Below, piece by piece: positions 40,956-64,000 of a stretch of 64,000 nt of DNA. The position numbers and the translations under genes were made by a program. The notes under the pieces were generated by a model. The model had not been told where the DNA came from. It ran no database searches and saw nothing but the letters and a program-made list of their open reading frames with translations. The stretch spans positions 1,116,001-1,180,000 of the forward strand of contig JAJGRE010000001.1 of the NCBI GenBank assembly GCA_021083345.1, read 5' to 3'. Source of the stretch: Calditrichales bacterium MX18-03. Lineage in GTDB: Bacteria; Bacillota; Clostridia; Lutisporales; Lutisporaceae. How positions within the stretch are numbered: the stretch's first letter is position 1; each line of letters starts with the position of its first letter.

Positions 40956-41052
40956 GGGGGTAGATGGGTGCTGGTGTATCCTCCGGTCTTCAAAACCGGC
41001 ATGCGGGGTTGGTAGCCTCGTGGGTGGGTTCGATTCCCACATACTCCCGCCA
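40956..41052 (+). tRNA. selC: tRNA-Sec (anticodon TCA)
   Basis: This tRNA inserts selenocysteine at UGA codons after charging by SerRS and conversion by SelA. The 97-nt gene has all class-specific features: a long acceptor arm (seven pairs plus a G-A at position eight), a six-pair D stem (40966-40971 with 40976-40981), an anticodon stem CCGGT/ACCGG with loop CTTCAAA giving TCA at 40990-40992, a long variable arm (CGGGG/CCTCG), T arm GTGGG/CCCAC and an encoded CCA. The 3' half from 40987 is the attachment site of the prophage, which leaves the tRNA intact. selA and selB are not in the window. Confidence 0.95.
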
Positions 41053-57441: not shown

Positions 57442-57621
57442 GCACAAACCGCCTTCTATAAACAAATTAAAGCGTAGGCAGCCGTGTTTATGCAATATTT
57501 GGTCCCGCCTTGATCTTGTTTGAAATATTCCGAACTCTACGTTATACTACAATTAGACACAAAGCATCAGCAAAATGGTGCGGTGGTCGAAAACCCCACT
57601 GCCGCGAATAGGAGCGATAAA

Positions 57622-59346
57622 ATGCTTAAGGAGAATTATTTCCTGCTGGAAAGCAGCAGCCACGGCTATCATGCCTTTTATACCCTGTTGAAGGAAAACT
57701 TCAGTGGGCTCCAGGCCATCCAATATACCGACGAGCTGATGGATGCAGTCTGCGCCCTGACAGGCAGCCGCAGCTTCTGGAACAATCATGTTTTTGTAAT
57801 TTTCGTAGAATATCCACAAGTGAGCGTCGTTTCGTCGCTGCTGCACGACTTGTTGGACCCCTTCAGCTACATTCTGGTTACCTATTACAAGGAGCCCCAT
57901 CAGATTCTCATGCCTGTTTCCGGTAACCTGTTTGAACATATTTTCACTGACTTTTCGCTTTTTCATTCAGATTACTATTTCGCAAAGCTCCGCTGTGAGC
58001 TGGAAAAGCTTCGCCGTATTTTTTTCCTAAAATCGGAAATGCGTAGTTTTTATGATATCGGTAAGGCATTGGCGTCAGAAAAAGACAGCATCCGTTTATT
58101 TGAGAAAATCATCGACAGCAGCATGGACATGACCGCCTCAGATGCAGGCACCCTGTATCTTATCGTTGATCAGGAGACCGGCAGCTGGTCCTCCATCAAA
58201 AATAGCGACTGCAGCCGCAAGTTTTTTAAGTTTGCCATTTCCAGGACCCTCAGCGTACAGTCTGCCCTGGAAACGTCAACTATGCCCATTACACGGGAGA
58301 GCATCGCCGGTTATACTGCCATTACCGGACGGACTCAGAATATTGAGGATGCTTACAGAATCGATGACCATGTGGAATATCACCACAACAGCAGCTTTGA
58401 TCGGCGTACCGGTTTTATCACCAAATCCATCCTTTCCATCCCCATGAAGGATCATCAGGACAATATCCTGGGTGTCATTCAATTGATCAACAAGAAAAAG
58501 GATAAAACAGAGCTTATCGATTATTCCGATCCGGAGCGTATCAGCCATGTACTGACCTATGACACCGCAGACGTGATGGTCATGGAATCCATGGCCGGAC
58601 TGGCAGCTGTGGCACTGGAAAACAATTTGCTTTATCGGGATATGGAAGCGCTCTTAAAAAGCTATGAGGAACAAAACAGGAGCCTGACGCTGCTGAGCCG
58701 GAAAATACTGAAGGCTCATGAGGAAGAGCGAAAGAGAATTGCCAGAGAGATCCACGACGGCGCGGCTCAATCTGCCGCGAACCTGGCCATCAAGCTGGAA
58801 ATCTGCAAGAAGATCCTGGAGCGGGGCGAAAAAGCAGACGTGATGAAGGAACTGGATACACTGGGCAATAATGTCCGGAATACCGTCAATGAAATCCGCG
58901 GCATCATTTACGACCTGAAGCCGTCCTATCTGGAAAACGGCCTCATCATGGCCTTAAAGAACCATATTGAAAGCTTCACTGAGAATACCGGCATCAAGGT
59001 AATGTTTACAGCCAATGGTGACGATAATAAAATTGAATACTATTTGGTCTCTACCTTATTCAGAATTGCACAGGAAGCCCTGTCCAACATATACAAACAT
59101 GCCCGGGCGGACTTAGTCAAGGTTGACTTGGAAATAGGCAACGGCTGCCTATCCCTGATCCTGTCCGATAATGGCGTGGGCTTTGAAACGGCCGGTCTGA
59201 CACAGAAACGGCATAAATCCATTGAGAGCGGGTTTGGTCTGGAAGGGATTATGGAGAGAGTTGAACTGATAAAGGGAAGCATCTCCATTACGTCCCAAAG
59301 CGGCAGCGGAACGGTCTTAAGCATCAAGGTACCCCTGGCAAGCTAG
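57622..59346 (+). CDS. GAF-domain NarL-type histidine kinase
   Basis: A 574-residue soluble sensor. Residues 1-150 form an unknown input domain; a GAF domain follows (about 165-340, SMDMTASDAGTLYLIV to ESMAGLAAVALEN), then HisKA_3 with phospho-acceptor H378 in RIAREIHDGAAQ, and an HATPase with FRIAQEALSNIYKHA and LSDNGVGFE. The ATG at 57622 has GGAG upstream. Ends 46 bp before the cyclase gene, same strand. No LuxR-type response regulator is present. Confidence 0.9.
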   Translation: MLKENYFLLESSSHGYHAFYTLLKENFSGLQAIQYTDELMDAVCALTGSRSFWNNHVFVIFVEYPQVSVVSSLLHDLLDPFSYILVTYYKEPHQILMPVSGNLFEHIFTDFSLFHSDYYFAKLRCELEKLRRIFFLKSEMRSFYDIGKALASEKDSIRLFEKIIDSSMDMTASDAGTLYLIVDQETGSWSSIKNSDCSRKFFKFAISRTLSVQSALETSTMPITRESIAGYTAITGRTQNIEDAYRIDDHVEYHHNSSFDRRTGFITKSILSIPMKDHQDNILGVIQLINKKKDKTELIDYSDPERISHVLTYDTADVMVMESMAGLAAVALENNLLYRDMEALLKSYEEQNRSLTLLSRKILKAHEEERKRIAREIHDGAAQSAANLAIKLEICKKILERGEKADVMKELDTLGNNVRNTVNEIRGIIYDLKPSYLENGLIMALKNHIESFTENTGIKVMFTANGDDNKIEYYLVSTLFRIAQEALSNIYKHARADLVKVDLEIGNGCLSLILSDNGVGFETAGLTQKRHKSIESGFGLEGIMERVELIKGSISITSQSGSGTVLSIKVPLAS

Positions 59347-59392
59347 TCCGCATGCGTGCACAGACCATGTCTCAACAAACGGAGGAATTCCT

Positions 59393-62300
59393 ATGATCTG
59401 CTACCACTGCGGTTTCAGCATCAATCAAATCCAGTCCATGGAATGCAGCTTCTGCGGAACAAAATTCGGCAAACACTGCACGGCCTGCGGTTCACCAAAC
59501 CCGGCCATGGCCAGTTACTGCTTTTATTGCGGCAAGGCTGCGGATACAGGAAGAGTCGTCGCATTTCAGAAAAACAATAACGCCCTGTCGGAGGCCCGCA
59601 AGAATGTTGCGGTCATATTTGCCGATATTTCTGGTTTCACAAGGCTTTCGGAACGATTTGACCCGGAATTGGTCCGGGAAATCATCAATGATTGTTTTGC
59701 CTATATCGTCCGACCGGTTTATGAATACGGCGGTTCAATTGACAAGTATATCGGCGACTGCGTCATGATTTTATTTGGTGCCCGTGAAAGCCACGTAGAC
59801 GATGCTAAAAGGGCCGTTCTCTGCAGCATCAAAATGCAGCAGCTCCTGAAGGAGTTTTCAGAGCTTAGAGCCAAACCCATGGGTTTTGACCTGGAGATGT
59901 CTGTGGGCATCCATTACGGACTTGTAGTTACAGGACGGGTCGGCAGCTTTTATGATGCCGACTATACTGTTATGGGCGATACGGTCAACACCGCGCAGCG
60001 CATCCAGTCACAGGCTCCCAAATCAACCGTCTATGTTTCCGAAGCGGTTTACCGGGAAACCTCTGAGGATTTTCATTATGAGGGACCCGTCACCTTCAGC
60101 GTAAAAAACAAGGAACAGCCCATAACCTGCTACATCCCAACTGCCAGTATGCACACTGCCTCCTTGCTGCGCCAGAAGTACGCCTTTTTCGGGCGTGAAG
60201 CGGAGCTGTTGCTTTTAAAAGAGCAGTTTGACAAAGCCTGCCGGACAGCCGGGCAGGTTGTTGCTGTTTCAGGCCCCCCCGGCATCGGAAAAACCAGGCT
60301 GGTTCAGGAATTCCTTCAATCCATAGGTGACGACTACAAGAAGATCTCTGTCGAATGCTTTGCTGCCCAAGCTGCAAAGCCTTATGGTGCCATAGGAAGC
60401 CTGCTGCTCTCCATCATGAACATCAATCCGGAAGACCCTGAAATTGTCAAGCAGAGCAGGATCATCTCCTACATCAGCTTTATACTGGGAGAGCTTGATG
60501 AGGAGGGCATCAAGCGGAATTACCGCTTCCTGAGTCTCCTGATGGGCATGGAGCCGGATAATGAGTTGAAAAGCATTATCCGTTCAATGGACATGAACCA
60601 TCTTCAGTCGGAGCTGTTCAACCAGTTCCAGCTTTTTTTCGAGGGATATGTCAAACGGTTCAAGCCGGTTATCGTCCTGGAGAATCTCCATTGGAGCGAT
60701 TCCAAGTCGCTGACGCTGCTCAACGACTTATACGGCAAATTATCCGGCAAGAGAATCAAAGGCATTTTGCTGATCTACACAGCCCGGGAGGAACTGCGCA
60801 ACCGGAAAGAAAACAGAAGGAAGGACTCCTTTACCGCTATCCATTTGAGACCCCTCAGCAGGGAACAGGTGGAGGAAGCGGCCAAACATCAGCTTCACTG
60901 TCAGGAACTGGACAGCCGCTTTTCGGACAGTCTGCAGACCGCCAGCAACGGAAACCCCTTGTATTTGCTGGAGTATATAAAATACCTGAAAAGGTTGAAC
61001 CGCTGCCGCATGGAAGAGGGCCGAGCCTACCTCCGCGAAAGCACCAATGAACTGCCTAACAGCTTGCAGGGGCTTATTCTTTCTAAGCTGAACGAGATGG
61101 ATGAGAGTACTGTGGAATTCATTCAGACTGCTTCAGCCATCGGCAAGGAATTCCATGCCTCCTTCATCAGCTTTATCCTGAAAAGAAATATTGAGGCTGA
61201 CGGCTTGCTGGGGCTGCCCTTGCAGCTTGAGATCCTGCAGGTGAAAACCACCTATGCCACCTCAGGCCGCAGTGAAAAAGTATTCAGCTTTCACCACGAA
61301 GTTGAAAGAGAAGTCTATTACAACAGCCTGCTCCTGAAGCAGAAGAAGCTGCTGCACAAGAGAATCGGCGAGGCTATGGAGCAGCTCTTTGAAAAGTCCA
61401 TTGACAGCTATTACGATATCATTGCCGAACATTTTGAGAAGGCGGAGGACAAGCTCAAAGCAGCCGATTACTATTACCTCTCCGCAGTAAGGCACAAAAC
61501 ACTCTTCAGCTATTCCAGCGCAATGGAGCATTATCTGAAAGTATTGGCGCTGGCACAGCAGATCAAAGGCTACGCCAATGAACGGCTGCTGGACATCCAT
61601 CAGGAGCTGTGCAATATTTATTCCATCATGTCAAAGCATGAAAGCGCATTGCAGCATCTGAGTCTTGCACTTGAACTTGCACAAGATGAGACCGTCAATC
61701 TCTCGCTTAGATTGGTTGCTGCGCGGATCTACAAGGATCAAGGCCGTTATGCAGAGGCTGTCAATCTGATTGCTGAGATCGAGCCGCTATTGGATATCAA
61801 GAGTGCCCTTTACGGCAATCTGCTCTATCTGAAATGCAATATCCTCAGGGTTCTTGGCCGGCTGGAAGAAGCCCTGGAAGCAGCAAAAAAAGCCGAAAAG
61901 CTTCTGAAAAAGCATAAGGATTATGAAAATTTGGCCAAGGCACTCAATGCTGCCGGCATCCTCTACTATTCCACCGGCAAGCCTGACATGGCTCTGAACT
62001 GCTATATCAAGGCATATGAGTCCGCTGAACGGTCAAGGGATCTGCAAACCCTGATGAAGACTTCAACGAATATTGCCGTCATTTACCATTCCCAGGGCAA
62101 AATCACCCAGGCCATGACGTATTACAATATAGCCAAGGAATTATCCGGAAAGCTTTCACACCATCAAGGCTACGTTACCAGCATCACAAACCTGGGCGTG
62201 CTGTATATGGATAGGGGGCATTTCAACAAAGCCAGAGCGCTTTTCAACGAAGCATTGCCTGCAGCCATGGAAGCGTCTATGCGGATTGTGGAGTCTTCGC

Positions 62301-62926
62301 TTCATTCCAACCTTGCCGATGCCGAGTATTATCTGGGCAACTATGATGCGGCAGCAGAGCATATACGGGCAGCGCTATCCATCTCCCAAGAGATCGACGA
62401 TCAGGAAGGCAAGGGAATTAACCTGATTGCCCTTGGGAAGATTGAAATAGAGCTGGATAATACCAAGCAGGCACGGCAGCACCTTGAAGATGCTTTAGCC
62501 ATTATGGCGCAGTTAGAAAACTGCGATGGGATTTATGATTACCATTATTATTCGGCATGCTGCGACCTGTCGGAAGGCCTGCTCTCCCAAGCTGCCGTCC
62601 ATGCAGAAGAGGCCTGGGGGTATGCCGTGCAGCTTGGAAGCGAGAAGAAAAAGGCAAAGCTGCAGCAGCTCAAAGGCCTCATCCGGCAGCAGCGGCACGA
62701 TTGGGCCGGCTCAATATCATTATTTACGTCTGCTGCTTCCGCATTCGAGAAAGAAGCTGCCTTCCTTGATGCCGCACTGTCGCACAGCTACAGAGCCAGG
62801 AGCCGTAAAGCGCTTGGGCTTGATGCCGAAGCCCGGCAGGATCAGGAGAAGGCCCGGCAGCTCATCGCGCAGATTGACAGCTGCAAGCTTACTGAAATGA
62901 TTGTAAAGGAGTATGGCATCACTTGA
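59393..62926 (+). CDS. Zinc-ribbon, class III adenylate cyclase, AAA ATPase and TPR protein
   Basis: A 1177-residue cytoplasmic signalling protein. A double zinc ribbon (1-50: CYHCG, CSFCG, CTACG, CFYCG) precedes a class III cyclase domain (about 70-245) with metal Asp residues D78 (VIFADISGFTR) and D122 (DKYIGDCVM), Lys118 and a GDTVNTAQR segment carrying the Asn/Arg pair, which predicts cAMP formation. An AAA ATPase follows (P-loop GPPGIGKT 294-301), then about 500 residues of TPR helices (LYYSTGKPDMALNCYIKAY and repeats). It lies 46 bp after the histidine kinase. Confidence 0.92.
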   Translation: MICYHCGFSINQIQSMECSFCGTKFGKHCTACGSPNPAMASYCFYCGKAADTGRVVAFQKNNNALSEARKNVAVIFADISGFTRLSERFDPELVREIINDCFAYIVRPVYEYGGSIDKYIGDCVMILFGARESHVDDAKRAVLCSIKMQQLLKEFSELRAKPMGFDLEMSVGIHYGLVVTGRVGSFYDADYTVMGDTVNTAQRIQSQAPKSTVYVSEAVYRETSEDFHYEGPVTFSVKNKEQPITCYIPTASMHTASLLRQKYAFFGREAELLLLKEQFDKACRTAGQVVAVSGPPGIGKTRLVQEFLQSIGDDYKKISVECFAAQAAKPYGAIGSLLLSIMNINPEDPEIVKQSRIISYISFILGELDEEGIKRNYRFLSLLMGMEPDNELKSIIRSMDMNHLQSELFNQFQLFFEGYVKRFKPVIVLENLHWSDSKSLTLLNDLYGKLSGKRIKGILLIYTAREELRNRKENRRKDSFTAIHLRPLSREQVEEAAKHQLHCQELDSRFSDSLQTASNGNPLYLLEYIKYLKRLNRCRMEEGRAYLRESTNELPNSLQGLILSKLNEMDESTVEFIQTASAIGKEFHASFISFILKRNIEADGLLGLPLQLEILQVKTTYATSGRSEKVFSFHHEVEREVYYNSLLLKQKKLLHKRIGEAMEQLFEKSIDSYYDIIAEHFEKAEDKLKAADYYYLSAVRHKTLFSYSSAMEHYLKVLALAQQIKGYANERLLDIHQELCNIYSIMSKHESALQHLSLALELAQDETVNLSLRLVAARIYKDQGRYAEAVNLIAEIEPLLDIKSALYGNLLYLKCNILRVLGRLEEALEAAKKAEKLLKKHKDYENLAKALNAAGILYYSTGKPDMALNCYIKAYESAERSRDLQTLMKTSTNIAVIYHSQGKITQAMTYYNIAKELSGKLSHHQGYVTSITNLGVLYMDRGHFNKARALFNEALPAAMEASMRIVESSLHSNLADAEYYLGNYDAAAEHIRAALSISQEIDDQEGKGINLIALGKIEIELDNTKQARQHLEDALAIMAQLENCDGIYDYHYYSACCDLSEGLLSQAAVHAEEAWGYAVQLGSEKKKAKLQQLKGLIRQQRHDWAGSISLFTSAASAFEKEAAFLDAALSHSYRARSRKALGLDAEARQDQEKARQLIAQIDSCKLTEMIVKEYGIT

Positions 62927-62939
62927 TCCCATACTCCTT
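62906..62939. terminator. Hairpin spanning two convergent stop codons
   Basis: AAGGAGTATGG (62906-62916) pairs exactly with CCATACTCCTT (62929-62939). The cyclase stop and the activator stop both lie inside, and the two reading frames overlap by 8 bp. Confidence 0.75.
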
Positions 62940-63866
62940 CAGCTTTTTGTAAATGAAAGGCACGGACATGCCGATGAGTCCGGCCATCCTCTCCGCCGCG
63001 CCGCCGGCCTTCTTATAAGCAGCCTCCAGAAGCTCCCGTTCCTTGTTCCGCATATGCGCTTTGTATTGAAAGGTGAATCCTTCCTCCAGCCTGGCAGGCA
63101 CATTGGCTTTCAGCCTACCGAGGTCGATACGGTCCTCTGCGGCGAATACCATGCATTTCTCTATGAAATTCTTCAACTCCCGCACATTGCCCGGCCACGG
63201 GTAGGCTGTCAGTTCCTTGGCTTGTTTTTTTCCAATAGGCATAACGTTCTTGTTGAATTTGGCATTGTATTTTTCAATATAATAGTTGGTGATTTCCAGG
63301 ATATCGTCTCCCCGCTCCTGCAGTGCGGGCAGGTTGATTTCCAATACCGCCAGCCTGTAATAGAGGTCGGTGCGGAAGCTCCCTTCCATAACCAGTTTCT
63401 GCAGGTCCACGTTTGTTGCAATGATGAACCGGGCATCCGTTCTGGTGTACTCAGTGCCGCCTACTTTCCTGTATACCTTGTCCTCCAAGACCTGAAGCAG
63501 CTTGCTTTGAATAGCCGGTGATGCATTTTCGATCTCATCGATAAAAACCGTCCCAGCCTCTGCAACCTCAATCAAGCCTTTTTTGGAGGAAATGGCCCCG
63601 GTAAAAGCACCCTTCTCATAACCGAATACCTCGCTCTCAAATATGTTCTCACCGATATTGGGTATGGTGATTTTTACAAAGGGCCTGTCTTTCCTGACAT
63701 TATCCCTGAAATGGACCCAGCGGGCAACCAACTCTTTCCCTGTACCGGTTTCCCCGGTAATCAATACGGTGGAATCAAGGGCCAGAAGTTTGGCATGGTC
63801 TTCCATATAGGCATTCATGTTCTTTCCAACAATTTCAAAGTCCTGAAACAGCACATTCTGCTCCAT
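62919..63866 (-). CDS. Sigma-54-dependent activator lacking a sensor domain
   Basis: A 315-residue enhancer-binding ATPase. The AAA+ core shows Walker A GETGTGKE (about 38-45), the GAFTGA loop that contacts sigma-54, and the VFIDEIENA Walker B. A C-terminal Fis-type helix-turn-helix (MAGLIGMSVPFIYKKLKEYG) binds upstream sites. There is no receiver, PAS or GAF domain, so it is PspF-like and must be controlled by partner proteins or expression. It is tail-to-tail with the cyclase gene. Confidence 0.93.
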   Translation of the reverse strand: MEQNVLFQDFEIVGKNMNAYMEDHAKLLALDSTVLITGETGTGKELVARWVHFRDNVRKDRPFVKITIPNIGENIFESEVFGYEKGAFTGAISSKKGLIEVAEAGTVFIDEIENASPAIQSKLLQVLEDKVYRKVGGTEYTRTDARFIIATNVDLQKLVMEGSFRTDLYYRLAVLEINLPALQERGDDILEITNYYIEKYNAKFNKNVMPIGKKQAKELTAYPWPGNVRELKNFIEKCMVFAAEDRIDLGRLKANVPARLEEGFTFQYKAHMRNKERELLEAAYKKAGGAAERMAGLIGMSVPFIYKKLKEYGIK

Positions 63867-64000
63867 CGACGGCTCCCTTCTATACGATTGTATAAATTTA
63901 TATGCTTATATAAATACAACATGATTATAGCACATTCAGGTATGGAAGGAAAGCCTGTCATTTTCCTGTTATCCCGGTCACGCTAGTGCTTAGGAACTAT

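Follow-up and report, generated by a model that had tools for sequence, protein, structure and literature searches.

Sigma-54 activators that lack an N-terminal input domain have been recorded among the enhancer-binding proteins (EBPs) of Clostridiales, where 11 out of 490 were of this kind (PMC6615313). In architecture and class those proteins are like the activator that we describe here from MX18-03, and the text of the survey mentions neither adenylate cyclases nor TPR proteins nor secreted targets. PspF of E. coli, which works with PspA, also has no N-terminal input domain, is controlled in trans and has a divergently placed target, and TIGR02974 matches the MX18-03 activator. The neighbours differ: PspF stands beside PspA, whereas the MX18-03 activator stands beside a cyclase-AAA-TPR protein, and none of the ORFs in the cassette was PspA-like, as judged from their sequences. 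Membership of the PspF family itself was rejected (233.6 bits against a cut-off of 443.55).

The class IIIb cyclases CyaC, CyaB and sAC (ADCY10) have the catalytic K/T pair, the Asn and the Arg in common with the cyclase of MX18-03, which differs from them by its single catalytic domain and its N-terminal double zinc ribbon. ADCY10 also carries a P-loop domain, and its C-terminal part is long. Another class III cyclase with TPRs, XC_0250 of Xanthomonas campestris, feeds the diguanylate cyclase XC_0249, a cNMP-GGDEF protein, and this pair resembles the locus of one genus of our study, g180 (PMC3770947). XC_0250 makes cGMP and the receptor is a cNMP domain, whereas the K and T residues of the cassette cyclase predict ATP as substrate, and a GAF domain is the candidate for the receptor. 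ZU5 domains are found in ankyrin, ZO-1 and UNC5b, with autoproteolytic relatives in PIDD, CARD8 and NLRP1, and the same fold is predicted for a cassette protein that differs from the ZU5 domains of ankyrin, ZO-1 and UNC5b in being a stand-alone, secreted, bacterial domain. Finally, c-di-GMP-I riboswitches (RF01051, RF03167) had clear matches in related loci without the activator and none in the MX18-03 cassette. Every part is of a known kind (input-less EBPs, cyclase-AAA-TPR fusions, class IIIb cyclases and c-di-GMP riboswitches); a literature search, with most subscription journals outside its reach, returned no description of their combination in a cassette or of an exchange of output devices.

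The four genes of the cassette

We examined a 64,000-nt window (positions 1,116,001-1,180,000) of contig JAJGRE010000001.1 of MX18-03. The initial annotation had placed a histidine kinase (HK), a zinc-ribbon cyclase-AAA-TPR protein and a sensorless sigma-54 activator in one locus at 57622-63866, and the ORFs and domains were confirmed with Pfam. A fourth gene, which encodes a small secreted protein of predicted ZU5 fold, was found beyond the window edge by reading the DNA past it (Table 1). The activator gene is convergent with the cyclase gene, tail-to-tail as had been described, with frames that overlap by 8 bp (62919-62926) here and a like arrangement in most relatives; the ZU5 gene and the activator gene are transcribed away from each other. 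The HK and cyclase genes look co-transcribed, and the TTGAAA...TATACT sequence 5' of HK was kept in five relatives in the alignment.

Table 1. Coordinates of the cassette features in MX18-03 (window numbering unless a locus is named) and of the riboswitches in related loci.
Feature	Coordinates	Strand or orientation	Basis or remark
Sigma-A-like promoter (TTGAAA-17 bp-TATACT) of the HK-cyclase pair	57520..57548	+	Read from sequence
Cytosolic sensor HK: receiver-like N-terminal domain, GAF, HisKA_3, HATPase_c	57622..59346	+	Pfam, orthologues, N-terminal fold
Double zinc ribbon, class III cyclase (K/T type), AAA_16/STAND-like, TPR protein, 1177 aa	59393..62926	+	Pfam
Double zinc ribbon	59399..59533	+	Eight Cys invariant from MX18-03 through genus g180
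Cyclase catalytic domain	59591..60133	+	Guanylate_cyc, 1.6e-27
AAA_16 (STAND-like) ATPase domain	60185..60745	+	Pfam
TPR region, limits approximate	61469..62842	+	Pfam
Sigma-54 activator without input domain, Fis-type HTH	62919..63866	-	Pfam; orthologues 57-66% identical
Intergenic region shared by activator and ZU5 genes, part in window	63867..64000	.	Rest beyond window
Putative activator palindrome TAGTGCTTAGGAACTA	63984..63999	.	Centre about -89 from predicted ZU5 gene start site; paired in relatives
-24/-12 element TGGCAGCATTCCTGCA	L003:8055-8070 (window 64055-64070)	Upstream of ZU5 gene	
Secreted ZU5-fold gene	L003:8113-8517 (about window 64113-64517)	Divergent from activator	Predicted fold, orthologues
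c-di-GMP-I or c-di-GMP-I-GGC riboswitch before ZU5 gene	L092:1602-1690, L093:8808-8904, L094:8547-8637, L095:8879-8967		Rfam

Pfam placed the GAF, HisKA_3 and HATPase_c domains of the HK at residues 191-366, 403-470 and 512-607, respectively, in the numbering of the 608-aa ORF; translation begins at the ATG at 57622, as the N-termini of the relatives show. In the 574-aa numbering, H378 of the H-box is invariant in the orthologues, and so is the N-box. The N-terminal part was modelled with AlphaFold (pLDDT 83.5) and gave weak matches to CheY and FleQ domains, none at E 0.001 or better. Strand 3 of this receiver-like domain ends with an invariant Glu (E63 in the 574-aa numbering; window 57808-57810), approximately where the phospho-acceptor Asp of a receiver would be, and the domain may be a locked pseudo-receiver.

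The cyclase protein comprises, according to Pfam, a double zinc ribbon (residues 3-47), a Guanylate_cyc domain (67-247) and an AAA_16 domain (265-451), followed by the TPRs. The solved structures closest to its cyclase domain were those of bacterial adenylate cyclases (2w01; 3r5g, CyaB; 1wc0). The class III residues, namely the metal-binding Asp pair D78/D122 and the transition-state residues N199 and R203, are present and invariant in the alignment of relatives, as are the ATP-selecting K118 and T192 of class IIIb, the Thr corresponding to that of 3r5g and 1wc0. The protein is predicted from these residues to be a K/T (class IIIb) adenylate cyclase that uses ATP and has all catalytic residues in place. 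This invariance holds although the aligned proteins are just 25-28% identical. Two members of g180 (L094 and L095) have a degenerate Walker A and keep every catalytic residue, which argues that selection falls on catalysis. A TOMM kinase/cyclase fusion (TIGR03903) was considered and rejected (176.8 bits against a cut-off of 705.75). The genome of MX18-03 encodes two class III cyclases, the second one in a different setting: it is about 420 aa long, apparently membrane-bound (L062:6276-7538), and lies about 2 kb from a gene of the CRP family (L062:3765-4409).

The activator is a protein of 315 aa in which the AAA+ match begins at residue 15 (Pfam, 5.7e-56), with an intact Walker A (GETGTGKE), GAFTGA at 86 and no input domain; it must therefore be controlled in trans or through its own amount. 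It has what is expected of a sigma-54 EBP, since its AAA+ domain, in which Walker A and GAFTGA are both present, is accompanied by rpoN in the genome (Sigma54_DBD at C8:19103-19576, 3.8e-61), a check that the initial annotation had proposed, and by a -24/-12 target promoter. Approximately 26 strong EBP matches were found in the genome.

The ZU5 gene product is about 134 aa long and starts with a hydrophobic segment of the kind seen in signal peptides. Its model (pLDDT 82.8) had 16 top Foldseek matches, all of them ZU5-containing (best E 3e-3, prob 1.00), and VIA-align against the ZU5 domain of ZO-1 gave a Z of 7.7, which being below 8 is not decisive alone, with an rmsd of 3.1 over 91 residues. 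The Pfam search with the ZU5 alignment returned nothing convincing and no match to Pfam ZU5. His-Phe-Ser-Arg near the C-terminus was invariant in 10 out of 10 sequences, and His-Phe-Ser was found in three more. Some ZU5-type proteins cleave themselves at a His-Phe-Ser motif, which lies near their last strand, as it does in the cassette protein; judging by this motif, self-cleavage at HF|S is only a possibility. In two families, genes similar to N-acetylmuramoyl-L-alanine amidases were observed in the vicinity of the ZU5 gene (L048:2562-3299, L050:3587-4294, L051:2881-3588 and L052:3531-4238; L106:2477-3193 and L107:13745-14467), with sequence starts that, as read from the sequence, differ between the families. 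They may hint at a role of the ZU5 protein in the cell wall.

Promoter and paired palindromes of the ZU5 gene

The -24/-12 promoter that had been suggested as a check was found upstream of the ZU5 gene in all nine loci that carry the activator, which belong to two families, with 9-11 out of the 11 consensus positions matched. The match was weakest in MX18-03 (9/11). At the corresponding position, five other loci of the first family had TTGGCAAGA and after it [CT]TTGC or TTTGC, and the three of the second family matched 10-11 out of 11 positions. In dinucleotide shuffles, an element as good was found in 0-1 out of 300 for eight loci and in 12 out of 300 for MX18-03. A scan of the whole window and L003 with the sigma-54 consensus gave no more matches than shuffled sequence, and the promoter argument therefore rests on conserved position.

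We also found two 16-bp palindromes of the type TAGKRCYNNRGYMCTA, 31-34 bp apart, at about -56/-88 in the first family and about -66/-100 in the second. The distal palindrome is clear in MX18-03 and the proximal one is degenerate. The pair arose in 0 out of 300 dinucleotide shuffles for seven loci and in 4 and 2 out of 300 for the other two, figures that are partly circular in the first six loci, because the consensus was written from those six. Other palindrome matches in the MX18-03 genome were considered as a wider regulon and rejected: none had a good -24/-12 element near it (best 8/11), which suggests a local regulon. Directly 5' of the activator gene (window 63867-63930), most of the nine loci have AT-rich dyads (for example TTATATAATTATATAA or TATATATCGGTATAAA), possibly the promoter or an operator of this gene.

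Distribution of the cassette and loci without the activator

Among 61 genomes (MX18-03 and 60 relatives), the activator orthologue (64-66% identical, where other EBPs reach about 40%) occurred together with the cyclase and the ZU5 gene. HK preceded the cyclase in every family locus long enough to cover that region, and the order HK, cyclase, activator, ZU5 gene was the same in three of the relatives (G007, G011 and G017); in a fourth (G001) the genes are spread across contigs. This co-occurrence and synteny bear out the earlier proposal that the three genes of the window form one functional locus. A search at the class level added three genomes of a second family. The complete set of four was present in two of them (G501 and G584), where HK and the cyclase gene point away from each other; the third, G726, has the activator and the ZU5 gene, and no cyclase or HK was found within the approximately 7-9 kb around them at this locus.

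At the phylum level (398 genomes, 267 genera; cyclase profile cut-off E <= 1e-60), the cyclase and ZU5 profiles matched the identical nine genomes, i.e. 9 out of 398 genomes and 3 out of 267 genera. These are not nine independent events, since seven of the nine belong to one genus. A profile search of genome contigs with the cyclase alignment recovered only relatives already found, and the ZU5 search in the class of G118 found one genome out of 22, G118 itself. Eight of the nine (G118 and seven near-complete genomes, of 2.4-2.9 Mb, of genus g180) have no activator between the cyclase and the ZU5 gene, which are divergent there and separated by 0.3-0.6 kb, and neither GAFTGA nor GETGTGKE is encoded anywhere in the four fully read loci L092-L095. 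We take g180 to be Caldicellulosiruptor, from its SLH proteins and glycosidases; our literature search, in the journals within its reach, found no paper that joins this genus with c-di-GMP and a riboswitch.

In all eight activator-less loci the leader of the ZU5 gene contained a riboswitch according to Rfam (72-84 bits): c-di-GMP-I (RF01051) in G118, with 84.4 bits, and c-di-GMP-I-GGC (RF03167) in the seven g180 genomes, with 72-75 bits. Between the aptamer and the ZU5 start codon lies a G+C-rich terminator-like hairpin with a T run. No c-di-GMP riboswitch was detected in the scanned activator loci (all but L049). A GAF-GGDEF protein is encoded beside the cyclase-ZU5 pair in L093 and L094, possibly the source of c-di-GMP for the riboswitch; in L095 the active GAF-GGDEF gene is not beside the ZU5 gene. 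All three examined g180 loci also encode a GAF protein with a C-terminal region that can be aligned to GGDEF and lacks the motif. In L093 this gene (L093:5058-6206) and the GAF-GGDEF gene (L093:6984-8189) flank an MBL-fold-like gene, and the same was seen in L094. The GAF regions of the HK align to the GAFs of the GAF-GGDEF proteins at 26-34% identity, both with an NK...[FY]x3D[EV]-like stretch.

Candidate routes of control

We favour the reading, to which we give a probability of about 0.7, of a dedicated signalling cassette with one output, in which the sigma-54 activator drives the ZU5 gene and the cyclase protein is the most likely controller, because its gene and the ZU5 gene are the pair that stays constant from lineage to lineage. 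What comparison of sequences shows is the cassette and its conservation, the ZU5 gene with its promoter and paired sites, the intact cyclase and the alternative riboswitch. The HK and the cyclase protein would be made together from the housekeeping-type promoter; the activator would bind the palindrome pair and, with sigma-54, switch on the divergent ZU5 gene, under the control of the cyclase-AAA-TPR protein. Where the activator is missing, the riboswitch and its hairpin would replace it before the same gene. More robust than the idea of the TPR/AAA protein as input of the activator is the reading in which the cyclase acts on the ZU5 gene by way of interchangeable output devices. Against the cassette reading stand the degenerate second palindrome of MX18-03, its 9/11 sigma-54 element, which was reached in 12/300 shuffles, and the locus of G726, where activator and ZU5 gene have no cyclase or HK beside them. 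A sensorless sigma-54 activator in Clostridia would hereby gain an identified target, a promoter and a candidate controller; the groups, with one gene pair wired to sigma-54 or to a c-di-GMP riboswitch, offer a natural experiment in regulatory replacement, and the small exported protein would appear important enough for tight control by two unrelated devices.

We rate two routes from the cyclase protein to the activator about equal, each possible and somewhat short of even odds. By direct contact, the AAA/TPR part would hold the activator off or on according to its nucleotide state, much as PspA does with PspF, and cAMP would be secondary. The initial annotation had offered this part as the missing input of the activator, a role that it may have. 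It would fit an activator without input domain, the conservation together of the convergent, overlapping genes, the trans control of sensorless PspF and the known assembly of TPR-STAND proteins on partners (PMC6468293); yet the cyclase-ZU5 pair is conserved in eight genomes where no activator exists, G726 has its activator without a neighbouring cyclase, and Walker A decays in L094 and L095 while the catalytic residues are all invariant. The last observation would suit a relay in which cAMP made by the cyclase is sensed by GAF domains, of the HK here and of the neighbouring GAF-GGDEF protein in g180, with kinase signalling as the output in the former and c-di-GMP acting on the riboswitch in the latter. 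The GAF-GGDEF genes of L093 and L094 and the resemblance of the HK GAFs to those of g180 point the same way, XC_0250/XC_0249 is a precedent, and the GAF domains of CyaB2 are reported to bind cAMP (PMC4411481). However, such a relay would leave the HK without an evident partner, as the activator has no receiver for it to phosphorylate and no response regulator was found beside the cassette, and L095 is without an active GAF-GGDEF gene at the ZU5 gene. The NK...DE stretch, moreover, is common among GAF domains generally, which weakens the resemblance.

Sensorless activators can also be active on their own. The activator might then be constitutive, the ZU5 gene being set by its amount alone and the cyclase and HK acting elsewhere, as the locus of G726 would allow. 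We regard this as unlikely, given that the cyclase and ZU5 genome sets are identical, activator-less genomes included; chance neighbourhood is hard to uphold for the same reason. Classical action of cAMP through a CRP-family regulator elsewhere in the genome appears highly improbable. Three CRP-family proteins are encoded in MX18-03, but none shows by eye the usual cAMP-binding Arg-Ser/Thr in its phosphate-binding cassette (atypical binders being possible), one has an FNR-like Cys cluster, and no such gene lies inside the cassette, so the cAMP receptor of CRP type that had been looked for was not evident.

On a wider and rather doubtful scenario, the ZU5 protein and the cyclase-AAA-TPR protein would form an ancient pair, of which the final switch has been exchanged between lineages. 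Some would use the sensorless sigma-54 activator and its paired enhancers, and others the c-di-GMP riboswitch, supplied by a linked GAF-diguanylate cyclase. The common step would be cAMP sensed by related GAF domains, and a self-cut at HF|S may expose a short C-terminal peptide.

Finally, the surroundings of the cassette were scanned. Rfam returned only tRNA-Sec (window 40956-41052) and tRNA within the window, and selB-, selA- and selD-like genes lie directly beyond the ZU5 gene (L003:8568-12785); selA/selB-like genes border the cassette in relatives too. Cobalamin riboswitches (L048:10520-10698, L050:11468-11647 and L051:10813-10995) precede the cobalamin genes that adjoin HK in relatives.
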